Assembly: GCF_001050155.1 (NCBI RefSeq)
Contig: NZ_LFVY01000007.1
Span: 186,001 to 250,000, forward strand
Source of the DNA: Nitratireductor soli
GTDB taxonomy: Bacteria > Pseudomonadota > Alphaproteobacteria > Rhizobiales > Rhizobiaceae
Direction: 5' to 3'
DNA: 64,000 nucleotides
The notes under the pieces are model-generated. The model had not been told where the DNA came from. It saw only the letters and a list, made by a program, of their open reading frames with translations, and did no database searches. Position numbers and translations under genes: made by a program. Within the stretch, counting starts at the first letter, position 1. Each line of letters opens with the position of its first letter. Below, piece after piece: positions 1,316-13,898 of the stretch.

Positions 1316-2701
1316 TCAGGCTGAGACGGCGCCCTTCGGCAAGGCGGCCAGCGCGTTGTCCAGCCCGGTCCTGAAGAGAGCCAGCAGGGCGTCGACCTCG
1401 CCGGCCTGGATGATCAGCGGCGGGCAGAAGGCCACCGCATCGGTCATGGCGCGGCTGATGAGGCCGGCCTCCTGCAGATGCGCGTTGACCAACCCACCCA
1501 GCGCGCCGGGCGTTTCCAGCGCCGTCCTAGCGGATTTGTCGGTGACCAGTTCGACGGCGGCGATCAGGCCGACGCCGCGCACCTCGCCGACCAGCGGGTG
1601 GTCCGACAGGGCGTTGAGCCCGTCGCGCAGGCGCTGGCCCATGGCGGCAGCGTTGCCGACCAGATCGCGCTCCTCGATGATCTTCAGGTTTTCCAGGGCG
1701 ACGGCGGCGGCGACCGGATGGCCACTGGCGGTGTAGCCATGGCCGAGCGTGCCGATCTTGTCGCTCTCCTCCATGATCGGCCCGAACACCTTGTCGTTGA
1801 TCAACAGGGCGGAGGCGGGCAGGTAGGACGAGGACAATTGCTTCGACAGGACCATGATGTCGGGCTCGATGCCGTAGGTGGTCGAGCCGAACATGGTGCC
1901 GGTGCGGCCGAAACCGCAGATCACCTCGTCGGCGACCAGCAGGATGTCGTATTTCTTCAGCACCGCCTGCACCTTCTGCCAATAGGTGGCGGGCGGCACG
2001 ACCACGCCGCCGGCGCCCTGGACCGGCTCGCCGAAAAAGGCGGCGATGGTCTCGGGGCCTTCGGCAAGGATGGTGTCTTCCAGCTCCTTGGCCAGGCGCG
2101 TGGCGAAATCCTCTTCGCTTTCGCCGGGCAGCGCCTCGCGCCAATGGTGCGGGCAGGTCATGCGCAGCACGTTGGGCACGATCAGGTCGAACGAGCGGTG
2201 GTTGCCCGGCAGGCTCGTCAGGCAGGCCGCGGCGATCGTCACGCCGTGGTAGGCGCGGTTGCGGACGATGATCTTCTTGCGCTCCGGCTGGCCAAGCGCG
2301 TTGGAGCGATACCAGATCAGCTTCAGCGCCGTGTCGATGGCTTCCGAGCCGGAATTGGTGAAGAACGCCTTGCTCATCGGTACCGGCGCCATGCCGACGA
2401 GCTTTTCGGCAAGCTCGATCACCGGCCCGTGCGATTTGTGGGTGAAGGTGTGGTAGTAGGGCAGCCGCTCCATCTGCTCCGTCGCCGCCTTGACCAGCCG
2501 CTTTTCGTTGAACCCGACGCCGACGCTCCACAGGCCGGCCATCGCCTCGATGTAGCGTTTGCCATTGTTGTCGAACACGTAGATGCCTTCGCCCCGGTCG
2601 ATCACCAGCGGACCGGCCTCCAGATGCTTTTTCGCATTGGTGTAGGGGTGCAGATGGTAGGCAATGTCGCGGGCTTCGATGGAATTGGGCTTGTCGTTCA
2701 T
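1316..2701 (-). CDS. Class III (omega-type) PLP aminotransferase
   Basis: The protein has 461 residues and moves an amino group from an omega-amino compound or amine to a keto acid, using pyridoxal phosphate. Fold-type I landmarks are in order: NSGSEAIDTALK near 117-127, GEPVQGAGG near 224-232, ADEVICGFGRTG with the PLP-binding Asp258, and the Schiff-base Lys287 in LSKQLSSSY. The length fits the beta-alanine/putrescine-pyruvate group of class III enzymes. The ATG at 2701 has GAGGATAACCG in front of it as a ribosome-binding site. It is transcribed away from the XRE-cupin regulator at 2974, with a perfect palindrome between the two, so that regulator probably controls it. The exact amine donor cannot be read from the sequence. 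A role in vitamin B6 or polyamine breakdown is suggested only by its neighbours. Confidence 0.88.
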   Translation of the reverse strand: MNDKPNSIEARDIAYHLHPYTNAKKHLEAGPLVIDRGEGIYVFDNNGKRYIEAMAGLWSVGVGFNEKRLVKAATEQMERLPYYHTFTHKSHGPVIELAEKLVGMAPVPMSKAFFTNSGSEAIDTALKLIWYRSNALGQPERKKIIVRNRAYHGVTIAAACLTSLPGNHRSFDLIVPNVLRMTCPHHWREALPGESEEDFATRLAKELEDTILAEGPETIAAFFGEPVQGAGGVVVPPATYWQKVQAVLKKYDILLVADEVICGFGRTGTMFGSTTYGIEPDIMVLSKQLSSSYLPASALLINDKVFGPIMEESDKIGTLGHGYTASGHPVAAAVALENLKIIEERDLVGNAAAMGQRLRDGLNALSDHPLVGEVRGVGLIAAVELVTDKSARTALETPGALGGLVNAHLQEAGLISRAMTDAVAFCPPLIIQAGEVDALLALFRTGLDNALAALPKGAVSA

Positions 2702-2804
2702 CGGTTATCCTCGCAAAGGTTCCGGGCTGCAGCGCTTGGTGGAGTTTAATCGCAGGTCGGTGTTTTTTCAGGGGTAGCATTGATCGTATGGAAGGACAAT
2801 CGGC

Positions 2805-2822
2805 CGCTCAATATATTGAGCG
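2805..2822. promoter_or_regulatory. Perfect 18-bp palindrome, probable operator of the XRE-cupin regulator
   Basis: CGCTCAATATATTGAGCG is a perfect inverted repeat in the 272-bp divergent gap between the aminotransferase (start 2701) and the regulator (start 2974). A weaker look-alike (TATATTTTCTTGAGC, about 2880-2896) lies closer to the regulator. Position and symmetry are what one expects for the binding site of a dimeric XRE-cupin repressor that controls both genes. Binding is inferred. Confidence 0.6.
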
Positions 2823-2973
2823 TATGTGCGGGTGAACTCCCTAGAATACAGGGTTCTTCCCAGGAACTAGAGACTCCCGGTATATTTTCTTGAGCAAATG
2901 GAGCGCATCAGCTAGCCACTTGCGCTGAACCATGCGAAGATTCGAGGCTTGGCGCGGACGGATTGAAGCACGC

Positions 2974-3555
2974 ATGAACGATTTCGACATCGGCACCCGC
3001 CTGAAGGCGATGCGCACCGCGGGCAAGCTGACCCAGCGCCAATTGGCCGAACAGGCCGGCGTTCCGCATGCGCAGATTTCGAACATCGAGAAGAACAAGA
3101 TCAGCCCCTCCATCGCGACGCTGCGCAAGGTGCTTGGCGGGATGGGCGTCGGCATGGCCGATTTCTTCGAGCCCGAGCGGGGCGACAATCCCGGACCGTT
3201 CTTCGCTGCCGATGCGCTGGTCGATCTCACGTCGCGGGTGGCGATCAATGCCGGCGCGCCGGGAGGCGGCCTGCTCGTCCTGCGGCAGATCGGTGACGCC
3301 AGGCTGCACAATCTGCAAATCCTGCACGAGGTCTACGAACCGGGCGCCGACACGGGCGAGACGATGCTGCAGCACGCTTCGAGCGAGGGCGGCTATGTGG
3401 TCGAGGGCGAATTGGCGCTGACCGTCGGCGACCAGTTCAAGATCCTCAAGGCGGGCGAATCCTATCTGTTCGACAGCCGAATTCCACATCGCTTCCGTAA
3501 TCTTTCGGACAGGCGCACCGTGGTCGTGTCGGCCTGCTCGCCGCCCTATCTCTGA
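2974..3555 (+). CDS. XRE-family regulator with C-terminal cupin domain
   Basis: The protein has 193 residues. Residues 5-60 form a helix-turn-helix of the XRE type (RLKAMRTAGKLTQRQLAE, then ISNIEKNKISPSIATL). Residues 105-190 form a small-molecule-binding cupin barrel ending in PHRFRNLSDRRTVVVSAC. This is the architecture of PuuR and related regulators of amine and amino-acid catabolism. An in-frame ATG at 2932 would add 14 residues with no family support, so I start at 2974, where the protein begins MNDFDIGTRLKAM. It is divergent from a class III aminotransferase and followed in the same direction by a pyridoxamine-pyruvate transaminase homologue. It probably controls both. The ligand that the cupin binds is unknown. 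Confidence 0.85.
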   Translation: MNDFDIGTRLKAMRTAGKLTQRQLAEQAGVPHAQISNIEKNKISPSIATLRKVLGGMGVGMADFFEPERGDNPGPFFAADALVDLTSRVAINAGAPGGGLLVLRQIGDARLHNLQILHEVYEPGADTGETMLQHASSEGGYVVEGELALTVGDQFKILKAGESYLFDSRIPHRFRNLSDRRTVVVSACSPPYL

Positions 3556-3664
3556 GGCCCAAAGAGAATCATCATCTTCATCTGGACCGACCGGCCCCGA
3601 ACCCGGTATGAGGCTGACGCCAGGCGCCTGCCGATCAGCGAGGCCCGGCGAAAGGGAGATTGCG

Positions 3665-4849
3665 ATGCGCTATTCGAACGACCGGCCGCCGGTGATCACG
3701 CTGACAACGGGTCCGGTCAATGCCTATGGCGAGGTGCTGCGCGGGCTGGGGCGAAGCTTGCTCTACGATCACGATCCCGCTTTCCAGGCGTTCTACGAAA
3801 GGCTGGTCGGAAAGGCGCAGACCGCCATGCGCCTGTCGAACAAGCCAGTGCTGATGCAGGGCGAGCCGGTGCTGGGGCTGGAGGCGGCAGCCGCATCGCT
3901 GATCGCCCGTACCGACACCGTGCTCAACCTGGCCTCGGGCGTTTATGGCAAGGGGTTCGCTTCCTGGGCCAGACGGCACACGCCGAATGTCCTGGAGATC
4001 GAGGTGCCCTACAATCAGGCGATCGATCCGCAGGCCGTCGACGAGATGCTGAAGGCGCATCCGGAAATCAGCGTGGTTTGCGTGTGCCATCACGAGACGC
4101 CCTCGGGCACAATCAATCCGATCAACCAGATCGGCGCGCTGGTCGCCGCGCATGGCGCCTATATGATCGTCGACGCGGTTTCCTCCTTTGGCGGCATGGA
4201 CACGCATCCAGAGGATTGCCGCGCCGACCTCTATGTCACGGGGCCGAGCAAGTGCCTCGGTTCGCCGCCCGGCCTGACCATGCTCGGCGTCAGCCAGCGC
4301 GCCTGGGACAAGATGAAGGCCAACAAGGATGCGCCGCGCGCTTCCGTGCTCAGCATCGTCGATTGGGAAAACGCCTGGTCGCGCGACAAGCCGTTTCCCT
4401 TCACGCCGTCGATCGCCGAATTGAACGGCATGGACGTGGCGCTCGATCTTTATCTGGACGAGGGGCCGGAGACCGTCTGGGCGCGCCATGCGCTGACGGC
4501 GCGGGCGACCCGCGCCGGCGTGAAGGCGCTGGGCCTGTCGCTATGGGCGGCCTGCGAGGCCATCGCCTCGCCCACCACGACCACCATCCGCACGCCCGAC
4601 GGCATCGACGAGGCGAAGCTGCGCCAGGCGGCGCGCGAGCGTTACGGCGTGGTCCTGTCGGGCGGTCGCGGCGCGACGCAAGGCAAGCTCACCCGCATCG
4701 GCCATATGGGACCGACGGCGCAGCCGATCTACGCCATTGCCGGACTGACGGCGTTCGCCGGTGCGCTGAACGCCCTTGGCCACCGTGTCGAGACGGGCAG
4801 GGGCATCGATGCCGCCATGGCGGTGATCGACACGCCGCCAGCCGATTGA
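3665..4849 (+). CDS. ppaT: Pyridoxamine-pyruvate transaminase homologue (class V aminotransferase)
   Basis: The protein has 394 residues and should convert pyridoxamine plus pyruvate to pyridoxal plus L-alanine, a step of vitamin B6 breakdown, without a bound PLP cofactor. It matches, from memory and nearly colinearly, the enzyme of Mesorhizobium loti. Residues described there for catalysis or binding (Glu68, Tyr95, Lys197, Arg336, Arg345) correspond to Glu67, Tyr94, Lys196 (TGPSKCLGSPPG), Arg335 and Arg344 here, with a constant offset of one. The start is the ATG at 3665 behind AAAGGGAG; an upstream ATG at 3608 has no such site. The other B6-degradation genes (pyridoxine oxidase, pyridoxal dehydrogenase, pyridoxolactonase) are not in the window. 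A general serine- or alanine-glyoxylate aminotransferase is the alternative. Confidence 0.82.
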   Translation: MRYSNDRPPVITLTTGPVNAYGEVLRGLGRSLLYDHDPAFQAFYERLVGKAQTAMRLSNKPVLMQGEPVLGLEAAAASLIARTDTVLNLASGVYGKGFASWARRHTPNVLEIEVPYNQAIDPQAVDEMLKAHPEISVVCVCHHETPSGTINPINQIGALVAAHGAYMIVDAVSSFGGMDTHPEDCRADLYVTGPSKCLGSPPGLTMLGVSQRAWDKMKANKDAPRASVLSIVDWENAWSRDKPFPFTPSIAELNGMDVALDLYLDEGPETVWARHALTARATRAGVKALGLSLWAACEAIASPTTTTIRTPDGIDEAKLRQAARERYGVVLSGGRGATQGKLTRIGHMGPTAQPIYAIAGLTAFAGALNALGHRVETGRGIDAAMAVIDTPPAD

Positions 4850-4937
4850 CGCTGCGCCCGGTTTTGACCACCCATGCCGGGTGCGTGCGCGATTAGGCGT
4901 GCCGGCAATGCAGATTGACGAAGAAAGAGAGTTGGAA

Positions 4938-5768
4938 ATGCCTCTGGATCCATCCACATTCGACGGGATGACAATCGCCATACTGGTGGCCGGCATGGCG
5001 GTGACGGGCATGATCGGCGGCGTCCTCGCCGGTCTCCTGGGTGTCGGCGGCGGCATCGTCATCGTGCCGGTGCTGTTCTGGGTGCTGCACACATTCAACA
5101 TCGCTCCCGAGCATGCCAGCCATCTGGCCGTGGCGACCTCGCTCGCCACCATCATTCCGACGTCCATTTCCTCGATGCGATCACATGCCAAGCGCGGCAC
5201 GGTCGACCGCGACCTGCTGCGCCTGTGGGGACCGGCCGTGTTCATCGGCGCGCTGGTCGGCGGCGGCCTGGCGAAGGTGGTTTCCGGCGAGCATTTGCGG
5301 CTGATCTTCGGCGTGGTCGGCATTCTTGTGGCCATCAACATGGCGCTGCCGAAAACGCTCGTCCTCTCCGAGGCGCTGCCGGTCAGCAAATGGATCAACC
5401 GGGCGATCGCCTGGGTAATCGGCGTGATCTCCTCGCTGATGGGCATTGGCGGCGGCACGCTGTCGGTGCCGACCCTGTCGGCCTTCTCCTTTCCGGCCCA
5501 TCGGGCCGTCGGTACGGCGTCGGCGATGGGGCTTCTGATCGCCATTCCCGGCGTGGCGGGCTTCATCTATGCCGGCCTCGACGTCGAGGGGCTGCCGCCC
5601 GGCAGCCTGGGCTATGTCAGTCTGCCGGCGGCGGCGATCATCGCGCCGGTCAGCTATCTGTTCGCGCCGCTCGGCGCGCATCTGGCGCATGCGCTCGACG
5701 CAAAGAACCTGAAGCGGGTGTTCGCCCTGTTCCTGGCGTTGACGGCGATCCGCATGCTGACGTCGTAA
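4938..5768 (+). CDS. TauE/SafE-family membrane exporter
   Basis: The protein has 276 residues and is almost entirely hydrophobic, with about eight membrane segments. It has two similar halves, each with a glycine-rich signature: GGVLAGLLGVGGGIVIVPVL near 25-45 and SSLMGIGGGTLSVPTL near 165-180. This is the hallmark of the TauE/SafE (DUF81) family of anion and sulfonate permeases. The ATG at 4938 follows AAGAAAGAGAG and gives the usual family length; two upstream ATGs are less likely. It lies 88 bases after the transaminase in the same direction and could be cotranscribed. Family members move sulfite, sulfoacetate or other small organic anions. The substrate here is unknown, though export of an acid made by the neighbouring enzymes is possible. 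Confidence 0.85.
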   Translation: MPLDPSTFDGMTIAILVAGMAVTGMIGGVLAGLLGVGGGIVIVPVLFWVLHTFNIAPEHASHLAVATSLATIIPTSISSMRSHAKRGTVDRDLLRLWGPAVFIGALVGGGLAKVVSGEHLRLIFGVVGILVAINMALPKTLVLSEALPVSKWINRAIAWVIGVISSLMGIGGGTLSVPTLSAFSFPAHRAVGTASAMGLLIAIPGVAGFIYAGLDVEGLPPGSLGYVSLPAAAIIAPVSYLFAPLGAHLAHALDAKNLKRVFALFLALTAIRMLTS

Positions 5769-5922
5769 GGCCTGCCGCGGAGGTATTTTCCTTCCGACGC
5801 CTGGCTCAAGCAAAATTACACTCCGGTGCTGTCGGCAGACAGGCGGCTGGCCTATTGTCAAAGTGCGTCGGTAGGCGTTCAAATCCGGCATCGAAACGAC
5901 GATCCAGCAACCGGGGGATTCC

Positions 5923-7548
5923 ATGTCCAGCTTTCTGATTTCGCGCCGTTCGTTGCTGCAGGGGGCGGCGTCCGCCCTTGTCCTTCAGGGCGCGCTCCTG
6001 TCGGCCCTGCCGAGCCTCGCCCATGCCGAGGATGCGCCGCGGGGCGGCCGGCTGATCGTCGCGGCGGATTCGGAGCCGCGCAATCTCAACCCGGCCATCG
6101 TCGCGTCCAATGGCGTCTTCTTCATCGCCTCGAAGGTGATCGAGCCGCTTGCCGAAGCCGCACTTGACGGCGAGGGCGCGCTGGCGCCGCGCCTGGCGAC
6201 GAGCTGGGAGGGTTCCGAAGACGGCCTGTCGATCACGTTCAAGCTGCGCGAGGGTGTCACCTGGCATGACGGCAAGCCGTTCACCTCCGCCGATGTGGCC
6301 TTCTCGGCGATGGAGGTCTGGAAGCCGCTGCAGAATCTCGGCCGCATCGTGTTCGCCAATCTCGACGCGGTGGAGACGCCCGACGACCACACGGCGGTGT
6401 TCCGCTTCTCCGCGCCGACGCCGATCCAGTTGATCCGCAACGCGCTGCCGGTGGTGACGAGCGTGCTGCCGAAGCACCTCTACGAGGGGACGGAGATTGC
6501 CAATAATCCGGCCAACAGCGCCCTGGTGGGCACCGGCCCGTTCAAGTTCGCCGAGTACAAGCCCGGCGAATATTATCGCCTGACGCGCAACGACGCCTAT
6601 TGGGGTGAGGGGCAGCCGAAGCTGGACGAGATCATCTTCCGCATCCTGCCCGACCGCGCGGCGGCGGCATCGGCGCTGGAAGCCGGTGAAATCCAGCTCG
6701 CCGCCTTCTCGCAGGTGCCGCTGGTCGACCTCGAGCGCATCTCCAAGGTGCCGGGGCTGAAGGTGGTGACCGAGGGCTATGAGGCGCTGACCTACCAGCT
6801 CGTCGTCGAGATCAACCACCGCAACGAGATCCTCGCCGACCTCAAGGTGCGGCAGGCGATCGCCCATGCGATCGACAAGAATTTCGTCGTCGATACGGTG
6901 TTCCTCGGCTTTGCCGAGGCAGCGACCGGCCCGGTGCCGCAAAATGCGCCGGAATTCTACAATCCCGAAACGCCCGAATATGCGTTCGACATCGACAAGG
7001 CCAATGCGCTGCTCGACGAGGCGGGCCATCCGCGCGGGGCCGACGGAACGCGGTTTGCGCTGCGCCTGCTGCCGGCGCCGTTCTTCAGCGAGACACGCCA
7101 GTTCGGCGACTATCTGCGCCAGGCGCTGGCCGAGATCGGCATCGACGTGCAGATCGTCGCCAACGACACGCCGGCGCATCTGAAGGCCGTCTACACCGAT
7201 CATGATTTCGACATCGCGGTCGGCTCGCCGGTCTTCCGGGGCGACCCGGCCATCTCGACGACGATCCTCGTGCAGTCGGGGATCGCCGACGGCGTGCCGT
7301 TCTCGAACCAGGGCGGCTACGCCAATGCCGAGCTCGATGCGATCATCGCCGAGGCGGCGGAAACCGTCGATACGGAGGCTCGCACCGCGCTGTACAATGA
7401 TTTCCAGCGCATCGTCGCCGAGGATCTGCCGCTGATCAACGTCGCCGAATGGGGTTTCACCACCGTGGCAAGCACCCGCGTCGTCAATGTCGGCAACAAT
7501 CCGCGCTGGGCCGTGTCGAACTGGGCGGATACGGGGCTGACGCCCTGA
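5923..7548 (+). CDS. ABC transporter substrate-binding protein, peptide/opine type (SBP_bac_5)
   Basis: The protein has 541 residues. It begins with a twin-arginine-like export signal (SRRSLLQG followed by a hydrophobic stretch, probable cleavage after AHA at about residue 35) and continues as a periplasmic binding protein of cluster C. Family marks include WHDGKPFTSADVAFS, the GTGPFKF motif near 205 and the LRQALAEIGIDVQI stretch near 400. These proteins capture di- and oligopeptides, nickel complexes, opines or glycosides. It is the first gene of a five-gene importer operon (5923-10989) with all four membrane and ATPase parts directly downstream. The 154-bp gap before it should hold the promoter, but I could not pick a clear one. 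The ligand is not predictable from the sequence. Confidence 0.9.
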   Translation: MSSFLISRRSLLQGAASALVLQGALLSALPSLAHAEDAPRGGRLIVAADSEPRNLNPAIVASNGVFFIASKVIEPLAEAALDGEGALAPRLATSWEGSEDGLSITFKLREGVTWHDGKPFTSADVAFSAMEVWKPLQNLGRIVFANLDAVETPDDHTAVFRFSAPTPIQLIRNALPVVTSVLPKHLYEGTEIANNPANSALVGTGPFKFAEYKPGEYYRLTRNDAYWGEGQPKLDEIIFRILPDRAAAASALEAGEIQLAAFSQVPLVDLERISKVPGLKVVTEGYEALTYQLVVEINHRNEILADLKVRQAIAHAIDKNFVVDTVFLGFAEAATGPVPQNAPEFYNPETPEYAFDIDKANALLDEAGHPRGADGTRFALRLLPAPFFSETRQFGDYLRQALAEIGIDVQIVANDTPAHLKAVYTDHDFDIAVGSPVFRGDPAISTTILVQSGIADGVPFSNQGGYANAELDAIIAEAAETVDTEARTALYNDFQRIVAEDLPLINVAEWGFTTVASTRVVNVGNNPRWAVSNWADTGLTP

Positions 7549-7584
7549 TCGGCGGAGTGCCGGCATGACAAGAGGGCGGGCGGT

Positions 7585-8571
7585 ATGAACCGCGCCTGGC
7601 TTCTGGCGCGGCGGCGCATCCTCAGCAGCATTCCCGTGCTGCTGATCGTCGTCATCGGGACATTCTTCCTCCTGGAGATGGCCTCGGGCGATGCGGTTGA
7701 CGCCTATCTCGTCACGCTCGGCGGGGATGCCGGCCTGGCACAATCGCTGCGCGAGCGCTACGGGCTGGACCAGTCGGCGCTTGCCCGGCTGTGGCTGTAT
7801 GCCGGTTCGCTTGCCCGGCTCGATCTCGGTTTCTCGGTCGCCTTCAACCGGCCGATCCTCGACCTGATCCTCGAGCGCCTGCCCAACACGCTGTGGCTGA
7901 TGGGCAGCGCCATCGCCATGGCCTTCACCTTCGGGACGCTGTTCGGGATCGTTGCCGGCGCGCGGCCGGGGAGTGCTGCCGACCGGGCACTGTCCATCGG
8001 TTCCCTGGCGCTCTACGCCGTTCCCAGCTTCTGGCTCGGTCTGGTGCTGAGCCTGGTGTTCGCCGTGCAGCTGCGCTGGTTCCCCACCGCCGGCATCGAG
8101 ACCATCGCTTCGGGCAAGACCGGCTTCGCCCGGGCGCTCGACATTGCCCGGCATCTGGTGTTGCCGGTCTCGGCGCTGGGTTTCATCTATCTCGCCTTGT
8201 TCCTGCGCATGATGCGGGCGGGCATGGCAGAGGTGTGGCGGCAGGATTTCGTGCTTGCCGCGCGGGCCAAGGGCCTGGCGCGGCGGCGCATCGTGCTGCG
8301 CCATGTGGCGCGCAACGCGCTGTTGCCGCTGGTCACCATGCTCGGCCTGCAGGCGGCCACCATGCTCGGCGGCAGCGTCGTCATCGAGAGCGTTTTCGCC
8401 ATACCGGGCTTCGGGCGCTTGGCGCATGAGGCGGTGGCGGCGCGCGATGCGCCGCTCCTGATGGGCATCATCGTCGTCAGCGCGGTGCTGGTGATCGTCG
8501 TCAATCTGTTGGTCGATCTCGCCTATGCCTGGCTCGATCCGCGCGTCGGCAGCGGGGAGGCTTCGTCATGA
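7585..8571 (+). CDS. ABC transporter permease, DppB type
   Basis: The protein has 328 residues and is an inner-membrane permease of the dipeptide/opine importer class. The first membrane helix starts near residue 12, and a long periplasmic loop (GLDQSALARLWLYAGSLARL) follows as in DppB. The EAA loop that contacts the ATPase is visible near 215-235 (VLAARAKGLARRRIVLRHV). The ATG at 7585 lies behind GGGCGGG. Its end overlaps the next permease gene by four bases (ATGA), which indicates coupled translation. It forms the membrane channel together with the 8568-9401 product. Confidence 0.92.
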   Translation: MNRAWLLARRRILSSIPVLLIVVIGTFFLLEMASGDAVDAYLVTLGGDAGLAQSLRERYGLDQSALARLWLYAGSLARLDLGFSVAFNRPILDLILERLPNTLWLMGSAIAMAFTFGTLFGIVAGARPGSAADRALSIGSLALYAVPSFWLGLVLSLVFAVQLRWFPTAGIETIASGKTGFARALDIARHLVLPVSALGFIYLALFLRMMRAGMAEVWRQDFVLAARAKGLARRRIVLRHVARNALLPLVTMLGLQAATMLGGSVVIESVFAIPGFGRLAHEAVAARDAPLLMGIIVVSAVLVIVVNLLVDLAYAWLDPRVGSGEASS

Positions 8572-9401
8572 GGCGGTTCGCGCTGCGCTTCCTGCGTTCG
8601 CCTGAAGGCATGGTGGGTCTTGTTCTGCTCGCCTGCCTCGTCGCCATGGCGCTGCTGGCGCCATTCGTGTTTCCGCGCGATCCGCTGTCGATCGTCGGGC
8701 GACCGCTGATCGCTCCGTTCACCGACGCATCGCTGCCGCTCGGCACCGACAGGCTGGGCCGCGACGTGCTGGCCGGGCTGATGCATGGCGCGCGTGCCTC
8801 GCTGCTGGTCGGTGTCTTCGCGGCACTCGTCGCGGTGGCGGTCGGCACGGTGGTGGGAACCGTGGCCGGGTTCGCCGGCGGTCTCATCGACGAGGCGCTG
8901 ATGCGGGTCGTCGATGCCTTCCAGGTGGTGCCGGCCTTCCTGCTGGCGCTGGCCTTCGTCAGCGTCACCGGTCCCTCGCTGCCGGTGATCGTGTTCGCGG
9001 TGGCGCTCGGCGCCTGGACCGGCCCGGCGCGGCTGGCGCGGGCCGAGGTCCTGTCGATCCGCGAGCGCGACTATGTGGCGGCGGCCCGGGCCATCGGCAT
9101 GCATCCGGCGGAAATCGCCTTCAAGGAGGTGCTGCCCAACGCGCTGCCGCCCGTGCTGGCGCTGGTTTCGGTGATCGTCGCCAGCGCCGTGCTGATCGAG
9201 GCGGCGCTGTCCTTCCTCAATCTTGGCGATCCGAACATCGTCACCTGGGGATCGATGATCGCCGAGGGCCGCAACGTACTGCGCACGGCGCCCTTTCTGT
9301 CGATCGTGCCTGGCTTCGGTCTCGTCTTGACCGTGCTCGGCGTCTATCTGTTCGGCGAGGGGCTGGTCGAGGCGATGGCGCATCGCCGGGGCCGGCAATG
9401 A
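8568..9401 (+). CDS. ABC transporter permease, DppC type
   Basis: The protein has 277 residues and is the second membrane subunit of the importer. It has six predicted membrane segments and the EAA loop YVAAARAIGMHPAEIAFKEV near 167-187. The segment PLGTDRLGRDVLAGLMHGAR near 55-75 is a strong mark of DppC/OppC proteins. The start overlaps the DppB stop (ATGA) behind GGGGAGG, and its own end overlaps the first ATPase gene by four bases. The tight packing shows the five genes form one transcription unit. Confidence 0.92.
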   Translation: MRRFALRFLRSPEGMVGLVLLACLVAMALLAPFVFPRDPLSIVGRPLIAPFTDASLPLGTDRLGRDVLAGLMHGARASLLVGVFAALVAVAVGTVVGTVAGFAGGLIDEALMRVVDAFQVVPAFLLALAFVSVTGPSLPVIVFAVALGAWTGPARLARAEVLSIRERDYVAAARAIGMHPAEIAFKEVLPNALPPVLALVSVIVASAVLIEAALSFLNLGDPNIVTWGSMIAEGRNVLRTAPFLSIVPGFGLVLTVLGVYLFGEGLVEAMAHRRGRQ

Positions 9402-10189
9402 CGACGACCCTCGCCACGCTGCGCGGCCTTTCCGTTTCCTACAGGCGCGAGGGAGCGCAAACCTTCGCCTTGCGCGATGTCGATCTCGATATCGCCACGG
9501 GCGGGCGGCTGGCGATCATCGGCGAAAGCGGTTCGGGCAAGAGCACACTGGCCCTGGCACTGGCCGGGCTCCTGCCGCCGGAGGCATCGCTTGCCGGCAC
9601 CATCGACTGGCCGGGTCTCGATCATGTGCCGGTCGCTGGGCGCGACATCGGCATGGTGTTCCAGGATCCGGGCTCGAGCCTCAATCCCGTGCTCACCATC
9701 GGCGAACAGGTGTCCGAGGGCGCGGTGCGCCATTTGCGGCTTGGACGAGCCACAGCAAGGCAGCGTGCGCTCGACCTGCTCGCACGGGTGCGCATTCCCC
9801 AGCCGCAGGCGGCGCTTGCCGCCTATCCGCACCAGTTCTCCGGCGGCCAGCGGCAGCGCATCGCCATTGCCTGTGCCATCGCCGCCAGCCCCCGGCTGCT
9901 GATCGCCGACGAGGCGACCAGCGCGCTGGACATGATCGTCCAGGCGGAAATCACCGAACTGCTCGACACGCTGGTGCGCGAGGACGGGATGAGCCTGGTC
10001 TTCATCACGCACGACATTGCGCTCGCCGCAAAGCTGGCCGATCGGATCGCGGTGTTCCGCGATGCGACGCTGGTCGAAGTGGGTCCGGCGCGGCAGGTTC
10101 TGGCGCGGCCTTCGCAGGACTACACGCGCAGCCTGATCGCCACGCATATCGATTTTTCCGCCCCGCGGCTGATCGATGAGCGCGCCTGA
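9398..10189 (+). CDS. ABC transporter ATPase, DppD type
   Basis: The protein has 263 residues and supplies energy for the 5923-10989 importer. It carries Walker A (GESGSGKST near 44-52), the Q-loop (VFQDPGSSLNP), the ABC signature (FSGGQRQRIAIA) and Walker B (LLIADEATSALD) with the H-loop histidine in FITHD. It is shorter than typical DppD (about 320 residues), mainly because it lacks the long C-terminal oligopeptide-transporter extension with its iron-sulfur cysteines. It overlaps its upstream neighbour by four bases and its downstream neighbour by one (TGATG). Confidence 0.9.
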   Translation: MTTTLATLRGLSVSYRREGAQTFALRDVDLDIATGGRLAIIGESGSGKSTLALALAGLLPPEASLAGTIDWPGLDHVPVAGRDIGMVFQDPGSSLNPVLTIGEQVSEGAVRHLRLGRATARQRALDLLARVRIPQPQAALAAYPHQFSGGQRQRIAIACAIAASPRLLIADEATSALDMIVQAEITELLDTLVREDGMSLVFITHDIALAAKLADRIAVFRDATLVEVGPARQVLARPSQDYTRSLIATHIDFSAPRLIDERA

Positions 10190-10989
10190 TGGGAGAGCCT
10201 TTCGTCACCGCGCGGGGATTGCGCAAGGTCTTTCACAGCCGGGGCCGCGACGTGACGGCGCTGGACGATGTGTCGTTCACGCTGGCACGCGGCGAGACGC
10301 TCGGCCTGGTCGGTCCGTCCGGCAGCGGCAAGTCGACGCTGGCGCGTGTGCTGATGCGGCTGATCGAGCCCGATGCCGGCGCGATCAGCATCGACGGCGA
10401 GGATTGGCTGGCCCTGCGCGGCAGGGCATTGCGCCAGCGGCGCGGGGCGATCCAGATGGTGTTCCAGGAACCGCTCGCCGCCTTCAATCCACGCGCCACC
10501 ATTGGCGGCGCGCTTGACGATCCGCTGCGCATTCACGGCATTGCCGACCGGGCCGACCGGGCGGAGCGGCCCCGGCGGATCGCCGAACTGCTCGAGCGCG
10601 TCGGCCTGCCTGCTGGCTTTGCGCAGCGCGCGGTGCATGAGGTTTCGGGTGGGCAGCGCCAGCGGGTCGCCATCGCCCGGGCGCTGGCCACACGGCCGGC
10701 ACTGATCGTCCTCGACGAGGCGGTATCGGCGCTCGACGTGTCGGTGCGCGGCACGATCCTCGAACTGCTCGCCGATGTGCAGAAAAGCGACGGCATCGCC
10801 TATGTCTTCGTTTCGCACGATCTGGCTGTCGTGCGCGTCATCGCCCATCGCGTGGCGATCATGGATGCGGGCCGCATCGTCGAGACCGGACCGACGCCGG
10901 GCGTCATCGCCGATCCGCAATCGGCAATGGGCAGGGCGCTGGTCGCCGCCGTGCCGAGGCTGGATTTCGGACGGGATGACGGCGCCTGA
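10189..10989 (+). CDS. ABC transporter ATPase, DppF type
   Basis: The protein has 266 residues and is the second ATPase of the importer. It has Walker A (GPSGSGKST), a Q-loop in VFQEPLAAFNP, the signature [15 protein letters not shown] and Walker B LIVLDEAVSALD, with FVSHD as the switch histidine. The LAAFNPRATIGGAL segment is typical of the DppF/OppF partner. It follows DppD with a one-base stop-start overlap and closes the operon. No transcription terminator is obvious in the 92 bases before the next gene. Confidence 0.9.
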   Translation: MGEPFVTARGLRKVFHSRGRDVTALDDVSFTLARGETLGLVGPSGSGKSTLARVLMRLIEPDAGAISIDGEDWLALRGRALRQRRGAIQMVFQEPLAAFNPRATIGGALDDPLRIHGIADRADRAERPRRIAELLERVGLPAGFAQRAVHEVSGGQRQRVAIARALATRPALIVLDEAVSALDVSVRGTILELLADVQKSDGIAYVFVSHDLAVVRVIAHRVAIMDAGRIVETGPTPGVIADPQSAMGRALVAAVPRLDFGRDDGA

Positions 10990-11081: not shown

Positions 11082-13760
11082 ATGACGATCCGCAATCTCG
11101 AACATGCCGCCCGCCCGCAATCCGTTGCCGTCATCGGTGCATCGGTCCGTGACGGGGCGGTCGGCCGCATCGTCATGCAGAACCTGATCGAAGGCGGCTT
11201 CGAGGGCGAGATCTGGCCGGTCAATCCGAAATACAGGAAGGTCGACGGGCGGCGCTGCTACAAGCGCGCCAGCCAGATCCCCGGCGTGCCGGATATCGCC
11301 GTGATCGTCACGCCGCCTGAAACCGTGCCGGGCATCATTGCGGAGCTCGGCGAAAAGGGCACGCGCACGGCGGTGGTCATCACGGCGGGGCTGACGCGTG
11401 AGAACGGGCTGCGCCAGGCCATGCTCGACGCGGCCAGGCCGCATCTGTTCCGCATCATCGGGCCGAACACGGTCGGGCTGATGGTGCCGCCGATGAAGTT
11501 CAACGCCAGTTTTGCCCATATGCAGGCCAAGGCAGGCGGGCTGGCGCTGTTGTCGCAATCGGGCGCCATCGCCACCTCGCTGGTCGACTGGGCGGCGGAG
11601 GAGGGCGTCGGCTTCTCGCACATCGTCTCGCTCGGCGACATGGCCGATGTCGATGTCGGCGACTATCTGGAAATGCTGGCTGGCGACGGCAAGACGCGCG
11701 CCATCCTGATGTATCTCGAGACCATTCCCAACCCGCGAAAATTCATGACGGCGGCGCGTGCGGCGGCGCGCCTGAAGCCGGTGATCGCCATCAAGTCCGG
11801 ACGGCACGCACAGGCGGCGCAGGCAGCGGCGACCCATACGGGGGCGTTGTCGGGGGCCGACCGGGTGGTGGAGGCCGCGCTGCGGCGCGCGGGCATTTTG
11901 CGCGTTCTCGATCTGGGCGAACTGTTCGACGCGGCCGAGGTGCTGGCGCGGTTCTCGCCATTGCAGGCTTCGCGCGTCGGCATCGTCAGCAATGGCGGCG
12001 GGGCAGGCGTTCTGGCCGTCGACCGGCTGATCGATTTCGAGGGGACACTGGCGGAGTTTTCAGCCGAAACGCTGGCGCGGCTCGACAAGGCGCTGCCGCC
12101 GAACTGGTCGCATGCCAACCCGGCCGACATCATCGGCGATGCGCCGCCGGACCGCTACAGCGAGGCGGTGCGCGCGGTTGCCGATGATGAAGGCACGGAT
12201 GCCGTCCTGGTGTTCAACTGCCCGACCGGCCTTGCCTCGCCATCCGAGGCGGCGCGTGCCGTGGCCGCCCTTGCCGAGCGCGGCCGCATCAATGGCAAGC
12301 CGCTGATCACCTGCTGGCTCGGCGAAAAGACGGCGCGCGAGGGCCGGCGCATCCTGCAGGAAGCGGGCATCGCCAATTTCTCCACACCGTCGAGCGCCAC
12401 GGCAGCGCTTTCCTACCTCGGCGAGTGGTCGCGGGCGCAGAAGGCGCTGACACGCGTGCCGTCGAGCGGCAGCGAGGATGTGCGCGGCGACCGCGAGGCG
12501 CTGGCGGCGATCCTGAAGGGAGCGGCGCGCGAGGGCCGACGCATGCTGACCGAGCCCGAGGCCAAGGCGGCGATCGCCGCCTACGGCATTCCCGTGCCGG
12601 CAACGCGTGTGACTGAAACGCCGAAGGCAGCCGGCGAGGCGGCGGCCGAACTCCTGAAGTCCTCGGACAGGGTGGTGGTGAAGCTGCTTTCGAAGACGAT
12701 CAGCCACAAGTCCGACATCGGCGGCGTGGTGCTCGACCTGAAGACGCCGCAGGCGGCGGTCGCGGCAGCGGAAGGCATCGTCAAGCGGTTGAAGGAAGCC
12801 GGCTCCGAAGACGCGCTCGAAGGCTTCGTCGTGCAGCCGATGGTGGTGCGCAAGCACGCGCATGAGCTGATCCTCGGTGTCAGCCAGGATCCGATCTTCG
12901 GGCCGGTGGTGCTGTTCGGCGCCGGCGGCACCTCGGTCGAGGTGGTCGACGACACGGCCATCGCCCTGCCGCCGCTCGACGATGTGCTGGCTGGCGACCT
13001 GATCGATTCAACGCGCATCGGCAAATTGCTCGCTGGCTATCGCGACCGCGCGCCGGCCGACCGCGCCGCGATTGCCGAGGCGCTCAACGCCATGTCGCAG
13101 ATGATCGTCGACTTCCCCTGCATCAAGGGCATGGACATCAACCCGCTGCTCGCCGACCGCGACGGCGTGGTGGCGCTCGACGCGCGCATCGAGATCGAGC
13201 CTGCGGAGATCGGTCGCAAGGGGCCTAACCCCGACCTGGCGATCAGGCCCTATCCGGGCGGGTGGGAGAAGGACGTCGATCTTGAAGGCCACCGCTACCA
13301 TCTCAGGCCGATCAAGCCGGCGGATGTGGCGCTGTTCCCCGGTTTCCTGGCGCAGGTCTCGCCGCAGGATATCCGCTTCCGCTTTCTTGCCTCGCGCAAG
13401 CACTTTCCCGACGAGATGCTGCTGAGGCTCACCCAACTCGACTATGAGCGCGACATGGCCTTCATCGCCCTGCGCGCCGAGGATGGCGAGATGGGTGGTA
13501 TCGGCCGCCTGTCCGCCGACCCGGACAAGGAGGTGGCCGAATATGGACTGCTGGTGCGCACCGACCTGCAGGGGCACGGGCTGGGCTTTGCATTGCTGAA
13601 ACAGCTGATCGACTATGCGCGCGCGGAGGGCATCGGCGCCATCGAAGGCATTGTGCTTTCCGACAACACCAAGATGCTGAACATGTGCCGGGAGTTCGGC
13701 TTCGAAGTGAAGGCCGGGGTGGCGGAACCGGGGGTGATCACGGTGTCGCTGGCGCTTTAG
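11082..13760 (+). CDS. Pat-type protein lysine acyltransferase: NDP-forming acyl-CoA synthetase-like domain fused to GNAT
   Basis: The protein has 892 residues. In order it has a CoA-binding Rossmann domain (about 5-130), succinyl-CoA-ligase-like domains (about 150-460, with GIVSNGGGAGVLAVD near 305), an ATP-grasp domain (about 490-700, ending GMDINPLLA) and a C-terminal GNAT acetyltransferase domain (about 725-890) with the acetyl-CoA motif VRTDLQGHGLGFALLK. This is the architecture of PatZ/Pat, which acetylates metabolic enzymes such as acyl-CoA synthetases on lysine. The start ATG at 11082 follows a GGAG. It is in the same direction as the ABC operon, 92 bases on, and may be independent of it. 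Whether the synthetase half is active or only regulatory cannot be decided from the sequence. Confidence 0.87.
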   Translation: MTIRNLEHAARPQSVAVIGASVRDGAVGRIVMQNLIEGGFEGEIWPVNPKYRKVDGRRCYKRASQIPGVPDIAVIVTPPETVPGIIAELGEKGTRTAVVITAGLTRENGLRQAMLDAARPHLFRIIGPNTVGLMVPPMKFNASFAHMQAKAGGLALLSQSGAIATSLVDWAAEEGVGFSHIVSLGDMADVDVGDYLEMLAGDGKTRAILMYLETIPNPRKFMTAARAAARLKPVIAIKSGRHAQAAQAAATHTGALSGADRVVEAALRRAGILRVLDLGELFDAAEVLARFSPLQASRVGIVSNGGGAGVLAVDRLIDFEGTLAEFSAETLARLDKALPPNWSHANPADIIGDAPPDRYSEAVRAVADDEGTDAVLVFNCPTGLASPSEAARAVAALAERGRINGKPLITCWLGEKTAREGRRILQEAGIANFSTPSSATAALSYLGEWSRAQKALTRVPSSGSEDVRGDREALAAILKGAAREGRRMLTEPEAKAAIAAYGIPVPATRVTETPKAAGEAAAELLKSSDRVVVKLLSKTISHKSDIGGVVLDLKTPQAAVAAAEGIVKRLKEAGSEDALEGFVVQPMVVRKHAHELILGVSQDPIFGPVVLFGAGGTSVEVVDDTAIALPPLDDVLAGDLIDSTRIGKLLAGYRDRAPADRAAIAEALNAMSQMIVDFPCIKGMDINPLLADRDGVVALDARIEIEPAEIGRKGPNPDLAIRPYPGGWEKDVDLEGHRYHLRPIKPADVALFPGFLAQVSPQDIRFRFLASRKHFPDEMLLRLTQLDYERDMAFIALRAEDGEMGGIGRLSADPDKEVAEYGLLVRTDLQGHGLGFALLKQLIDYARAEGIGAIEGIVLSDNTKMLNMCREFGFEVKAGVAEPGVITVSLAL

Positions 13761-13898
13761 ATCGCAGGATGTGCTGGCGCGTCAGGATCACTCGTTCCGG
13801 CATGGACCCTCGGGTCGGGGCCCGAGAGTGACGAGTTGTAGAGGCGGGAGCACCAGTTGCCGGCCGTCGCGACCAACACCGACATCCAATCCTTCGTC

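Follow-up and report, generated by a model that had tools for sequence, protein, structure and literature searches.

In rhizobia, the vitamin B6 degradation cluster brings together an importer with a B6-associated BMP binding protein, 4-pyridoxolactonase (hereafter lactonase), pyridoxamine–pyruvate transaminase (PPAT) and pyridoxal 4-dehydrogenase (PLDH). To our knowledge, little is known of B6 importers in these bacteria; the transport role of the BMP protein is putative, and NCBIfam names it so. The closest described relative of the enzyme studied here is PPAT from Mesorhizobium loti (EC 2.6.1.30; PDB 2z9u), in which K197 is the Schiff-base lysine and D171 the ring-nitrogen aspartate according to a 2022 review (PMC9309667); the review describes what pyridoxamine transaminases do biologically as unclear at present. 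We analyzed a 64,000-nucleotide stretch of the Nitratireductor soli genome (contig NZ_LFVY01000007.1, positions 186,001 to 250,000; hereafter the window) in which a PPAT gene at 3665–4849 and a TauE/SafE family permease gene (TauE) lie between an XRE-cupin regulator gene and the oppABCDF importer genes. The enzyme is of a known kind; its setting is one that the literature searched, mostly at the level of titles and abstracts, did not describe; we found neither an account of nor a name for the link between PPAT and opp there. We consider it somewhat probable that this PPAT serves B6 salvage or vitamer exchange and not degradation, as a reduced B6-cluster remnant set into an XRE-cupin/oppABCDF locus. 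A PPAT kept in the absence of the subsequent degradation enzymes, and linked to an importer, would give the enzyme a concrete, testable second role.

Judged by its sequence, the gene is an orthologue of M. loti PPAT, and its product is predicted to have the same activity. The open reading frame (ORF) is intact, with an ATG at 3665 giving 394 residues and an alternative ORF start at 3608. A phmmer search of the PDB placed 2z9u first, with 695 bits and a gap-free alignment over residues 1–390, the second-best chain reaching 137 bits only. The NCBIfam equivalog NF046070 (“pyridoxamine--pyruvate transaminase”) scored 634.5 against a cut-off of 600, a threshold passed by none of 14 control genomes, while the BhcA and PhnW-AepZ models gave 193 and 145 bits, each under its own cut-off. 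E67, K196, C197, R335, R344 and Y94 are present, and the first five follow M. loti numbering minus one, just as the first-pass annotation had it when it called the gene a PPAT homologue with five functional residues at a constant offset; we take the M. loti counterparts of all but the lysine to be E68, C198, R336 and R345. There, E68 is presumably the glutamate that replaces a ligand of the pyridoxal 5′-phosphate (PLP) phosphate, and it is said in the structure paper to exclude PLP; R336 and R345 are presumably the two arginines for the oxo-acid carboxylate. D170 and K196 are conserved in all 110 PPAT rows of our alignment. The window protein is 76–77% identical to Mesorhizobium PPATs and 84% identical to that of Nitratireductor pacificus (contig NZ_AMRM01000015.1), and it differs from the PDB chain in having Thr instead of Ala at residue 15. 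In the phmmer alignment to plant AGT1 (6pk1), E67 falls on Thr68 and T15 on Pro15, respectively a PLP-phosphate ligand and a residue around the substrate according to the AGT1 report (PMC6797613).

Unlike the M. loti gene, this one sits between an XRE-cupin gene and opp, in a genome (5.1 Mb, 58 contigs, 99.5% complete) that has no PLDH, lactonase or BMP binding protein at curated cut-offs. The PLDH model gave 46 matches to short-chain dehydrogenases/reductases (SDRs) in the whole genome, none over the cut-off (best 198.9 against 325), the lactonase model had zero matches at E 0.001, and the B6-type BMP model had three, none over the cut-off (best 92.8 against 400). The earlier statement that no other gene of the pathway accompanies PPAT extends from the locus to the genome for these three proteins only; the search took in neither pyridoxine oxidase nor any step downstream of 4-pyridoxate. 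No second PPAT in the genome passed the NF046070 cut-off, so that, for PPAT, PLDH and lactonase, B6 genes elsewhere together with a closer second ppaT, which the first-pass annotation had named as grounds for abandoning its reading, were not found. The runner-up to the PPAT model is a class V aminotransferase at C2:3874–4908 with 182 bits. Remnants of PLDH or lactonase were likewise absent by tblastn at E 0.01 in the window, in the genome's own upstream region (L069) and around the N. pacificus PPAT (L148). Pyridoxal kinase (181 against a cut-off of 144.5) and PdxH (272 against 180) are both present, and the scavenging role that had been suggested fits because of the kinase.

At a threshold of E 1e-100, PPAT was found in 69 of 394 genomes drawn from the family, 22 of 297 from the order, 9 of 385 from the class and 8 of 398 from the phylum, in draws that overlap and each include the N. 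soli genome itself. From these overlapping draws, which are not a random sample, we pooled 110 PPAT loci, each with flanks of up to about 10 kb; some end at contig ends, so a gene scored as not nearby may have been missed. Three loci (L035, L036 and L037) were dropped for lying on the same contigs as L145, L148 and L144, two with long branches (L112 and L184) were kept, and three of four plasmid matches were included (H2 was left out). PLDH or lactonase lies near PPAT in 56 of the 110, with TauE also present in eight of these and opp in four. In the remaining 54, neither enzyme lies within about 10 kb, so such PPATs are not rare: the BMP binding protein is present in 18, opp in 22 (one of them, the window, also with TauE) and only TauE in two, and 12 show none of the genes sought. 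TauE, which the window shares with the degradation cluster together with PPAT itself, occurs in 8/56 loci with PLDH or lactonase against 3/54 without; 70–84% identical copies lie near PPAT in ten loci other than the window, eight of them with PLDH or lactonase. In five Mesorhizobium loci (L038–L041 and L045), none of the B6 genes looked for lies within about 10 kb of PPAT, and in L041 PPAT adjoins ttcA and an inositol-phosphatase-type gene.

The 18 loci with the BMP protein and neither PLDH nor lactonase (L054, L059–L063, L110, L111, L114, L136, L138–L141, L157, L161, L181 and L182) may represent another B6 breakdown route: an HpaB-like gene is found in 15 of them, and an amidase gene together with one of the GMC or SDR type in many. 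They make alternative routes plausible, and together with the 46 SDR matches in the N. soli genome they lend some weight to the idea that the window PPAT feeds breakdown, taking the amino group from pyridoxamine while an unrelated dehydrogenase or oxidase removes the pyridoxal. We nevertheless regard such breakdown by non-homologous enzymes as improbable here, given that none of the 46 SDRs reaches the PLDH cut-off, that lactonase has no match and the BMP protein none over its cut-off, and that the genes beside the window PPAT are not oxidases.

The first-pass annotation had correctly placed a class III aminotransferase, an XRE-cupin regulator and a TauE permease around PPAT but had overlooked oppABCDF at 5923–10989, the commonest of PPAT's partners apart from the B6 cluster genes. 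In 26 of the 110 loci, window included, an oppA with 60% or more identity to that of the window lies near PPAT (60–78% in the 25 others), and in 25 of the 26 PPAT is upstream of oppA on the same strand. The gap is 4–25 bases in 13 of these loci, and six more overlap by mechanically assigned ORF starts; in the window, PPAT is also upstream on the same strand, ending at 4849, and oppA starts at 5923 with TauE between. On a PPAT tree of 109 rows (the second tree, with L185 left out), the presence of opp changes at least six times. In the first tree, one 19-row clade from other Rhizobiaceae and family f50 (SH-aLRT 100) has opp in all rows and PLDH or lactonase nearby in none, with K196, R335 and R344 kept in 19/19 and Glu at position 67 in 15. 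The window resembles this set in having PPAT upstream of an oppA 67–73% identical to theirs and no PLDH or lactonase nearby, but differs in the TauE gene between the two and in the place of its PPAT in the tree. Membership of the clade was indeed considered for the window PPAT and rejected, as the tree groups it with M. loti-type PPATs; the closest rows are N. pacificus, Oricola and L051, and the smallest well-supported set containing the window has 48 rows. A whole B6 cluster beside an oppA 60–75% identical to that of the window occurs in L051, L152, L168 and L187, at three places in the tree. Across the family, opp is present in 40 of the 69 PPAT genomes against 58 of the 325 others (Fisher p 6e-11, a value that overstates the association since the genomes are related), and in 17 of the 40 genomes with both, the two lie within about 9.4 kb.

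Comparison within the genus suggests how the window locus came about. Four PPAT-free Nitratireductor genomes (L221–L224) have the order aminotransferase, XRE-cupin, opp and acyl-CoA ligase, with the XRE-cupin gene immediately before oppA and neither PPAT nor TauE between, where the window has the PPAT-TauE pair. Class III aminotransferase genes 87–94% identical to that of the window adjoin opp in five other Nitratireductor loci (L220–L224), and the acyl-CoA ligase is the conserved right flank of opp in the genus. Since the PPAT-free genomes have XRE-cupin directly before oppA, the link between the regulator and the aminotransferase looks older and PPAT-TauE looks like the insert. The pair may stem from a B6 cluster that lost PLDH, because eight of the ten other TauE-bearing PPAT loci have PLDH or lactonase. 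In N. pacificus, the opp locus lacks XRE-cupin, PPAT and TauE, and the PPAT-TauE pair lies about 34 kb away; the simplest reading would be that the pair was inserted in the lineage to which the window and N. pacificus belong, and that a change in the latter followed. The insert cannot be told from its surroundings by GC content, and no clear mobile-element repeats were seen at it among the matches listed (20 of 31 direct families and 25 of 50 inverted pairs).

These comparisons divide what had been proposed as a link of PPAT to both a regulator and an exporter. The TauE half stands, as PPAT-TauE recurs in other loci; the XRE-cupin and aminotransferase genes are not specific to PPAT, because both flank oppA in the four PPAT-free genomes. 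Their partnership with PPAT was at first backed by seven loci of genus g646 that have both near PPAT-opp. This support was held weak: the aminotransferase there is only 32% and the regulator 39–41% identical to those of the window, the one aminotransferase scanned (L163) belongs to the AptA family (725 bits against a cut-off of 500), and in L162 the pair lies about 6 kb from PPAT. With the pair persisting in Nitratireductor when PPAT is absent, we rejected the partnership as weak.

We hypothesize that the PPAT-TauE pair is what remains of a B6 degradation cluster after loss of PLDH, lactonase and the BMP importer, and that it was inserted into a pre-existing XRE-cupin/oppABCDF locus. Pyridoxamine or a precursor would enter the cell, probably through the opp importer, and PPAT, acting as a pyridoxal-specific transaminase (pyridoxamine + pyruvate = pyridoxal + L-alanine), would convert it to pyridoxal without oxygen and retain the amino nitrogen as alanine. 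Pyridoxal kinase could then turn pyridoxal into PLP, with TauE as a likely exporter of a product or of a counter-ion.

Several observations weigh against this proposal. The 46 SDR matches are all below the PLDH cut-off, but an unrelated pyridoxal oxidase or dehydrogenase could still feed degradation, and adjacency to opp is evidently not needed in N. pacificus, with its PPAT-TauE pair so far away. The residue at position 67 is Asp in 4 of the 19 rows of the PPAT-opp clade, and the palindrome that we take as a candidate operator of the XRE-cupin gene is not repeated before PPAT or oppA. Of the 98 genomes in the family that carry an oppA with 59% identity or more, 58 have no PPAT. We read 20 opp loci without an adjoining PPAT, chiefly those highest in the identity list for these 98 genomes and with Pfam run on one member of each kind of neighbor; the neighbors were varied, including a second ABC importer (3), ATC-hydrolase-like (6) and creatininase-type (2) genes and LuxR/LysR regulators, so that opp may carry something other than a B6 compound. 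Finally, tauE and oppABCDF may belong to amine or sulfonate use, because a comparative study (PMC5320631) predicts that, in a few Rhodobacterales and Rhizobiales, both are members of TauR2 (taurine-type) regulons.

The 58 family genomes with opp and no PPAT, the predicted TauR2 regulons, the aminotransferase–XRE-cupin–opp locus without PPAT in four sister genomes and the distant pair of N. pacificus would all suit a landing of PPAT-TauE by chance, the importer carrying an ordinary peptide or an amine for the class III aminotransferase and the adjacency being meaningless. This we consider unlikely. PPAT lies upstream of such an oppA in lineages that are separate in the tree, namely Chelativorans, the 19-row clade, L152, L168 and L187 (with PLDH between in the last three), and the two genes are 4–25 bases apart in 13 of the 26 loci. 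A hand estimate (19 kb of 5 Mb in each genome) puts the expected number of neighboring pairs at about 0.15 in 40 genomes against the 17 seen, although these are not independent.

Residue 15 of PPAT, aligned to a position near the substrate in AGT1, varies with the gene company. Leaving out L043 (a gap in a short ORF of 279 residues), Thr is found in 41 of the 53 readable loci without PLDH or lactonase nearby, the window among them, and in 1 of the 56 with them. The raw counts are striking; on the tree, however, the trait changes at least seven times and yields only 4–5 independent pairs on supported branches, with which the sign test falls short of significance (median p 0.25). We do not take residue 15 to prove that the reaction has changed, and treat the pattern as a lead. 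One genome (G1278) has two PPAT copies, one with PLDH, lactonase and TauE nearby and Ser15 (L130), the other with TauE only and Thr15 (L131). The Thr15 pattern speaks for a drift of the enzyme to another amine or oxo acid, which would make it an offshoot within the PPAT family, but we consider such drift very unlikely in view of the retained E67, K196, R335, R344 and Y94, the identity to Mesorhizobium PPATs and the result of the sign test. Little speaks for the related reaction on another amine once suggested for the window PPAT, since it retains E67, at the position of a PLP-phosphate ligand, along with the catalytic residues.

Going beyond the window, we put forward tentatively, and with less confidence than the salvage role itself, that PPAT-oppABCDF is a hitherto undescribed alphaproteobacterial system for the import and conversion of B6 or a conjugate, assembled several times independently, with PPAT serving both salvage and breakdown. 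If so, B6 transporters would gain a new class in the family 5 importer, and a switch from one use of PPAT to the other would be marked by residue 15. Should OppA prove to bind a B6 compound, a new function would fall to a type of transporter that annotations call a peptide or nickel importer.

Features of the N. soli locus, in window positions
Feature	Position	Strand	Basis or remark
Class III aminotransferase, PRK06105 subfamily, omega-transaminase type	1316–2701	−	NF004767, 779 bits (cut-off 517)
Perfect 18-base palindrome, candidate XRE-cupin operator	2805–2822	.	Between aminotransferase and XRE-cupin
XRE-cupin regulator, PuuR-like	2932–3555	+	HTH_3 + Cupin_2 (Pfam)
PPAT, 394 residues	3665–4849	+	2z9u, 695 bits, gap-free; NF046070; E67, K196, C197, R335, R344
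TauE/SafE family permease	4881–5768 (possible start 4938)	+	PF01925, 175 bits
oppA, family 5 solute-binding protein	5923–7548	+	PF00496, 297 bits
oppB, ABC permease	7585–8571	+	
oppC, ABC permease	8568–9401	+	
oppD, ABC ATPase	9398–10189	+	
oppF, ABC ATPase	10189–10989	+	
Acyl-CoA ligase (ADP-forming type) fused to further domain	11082–13760	+	Taken as locus border

Some opp loci without PPAT have neighbors worth recording. A small ATC-hydrolase-like gene follows opp in L229, L232, L233, L235, L237 and L239 (Pfam on L229), and in L233 and L235 a creatininase-type gene lies upstream of opp as well (Pfam on L233); such neighbors hint at another opp cargo. In L230, the gene directly after oppF (12672–13763, with overlapping ORFs) encodes a class V aminotransferase that shares 35% identity with PPAT. 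Its alignment begins at PPAT residue 38 and it keeps the equivalents of Glu67, Lys196 and the second arginine, without the first.

Among the genes that frame the window locus, the class III aminotransferase has 5ghf as its nearest PDB chain (708 bits). The combination of an HTH and cupin regulator with an adjoining class III transaminase and importer recalls the PuuR-like regulators found beside amine transaminases, but the window protein falls under the PuuR cut-off (NF007408, 124 bits against 211), and its operator and targets are putative. Scans of 2600–6100 gave a single promoter-like site, at 2857–2886 before the XRE-cupin gene and none before PPAT or oppA, together with five terminator-like sites, all within PPAT or TauE. 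The 18-base palindrome is not repeated in the window with up to two mismatches. Since no copy precedes PPAT or oppA, we infer that PPAT would be controlled by read-through from the XRE-cupin promoter. Near-copies of the palindrome occur at the equivalent place in the four PPAT-free Nitratireductor genomes, and in three of these four relatives a similar second site lies about 85 bases further on.

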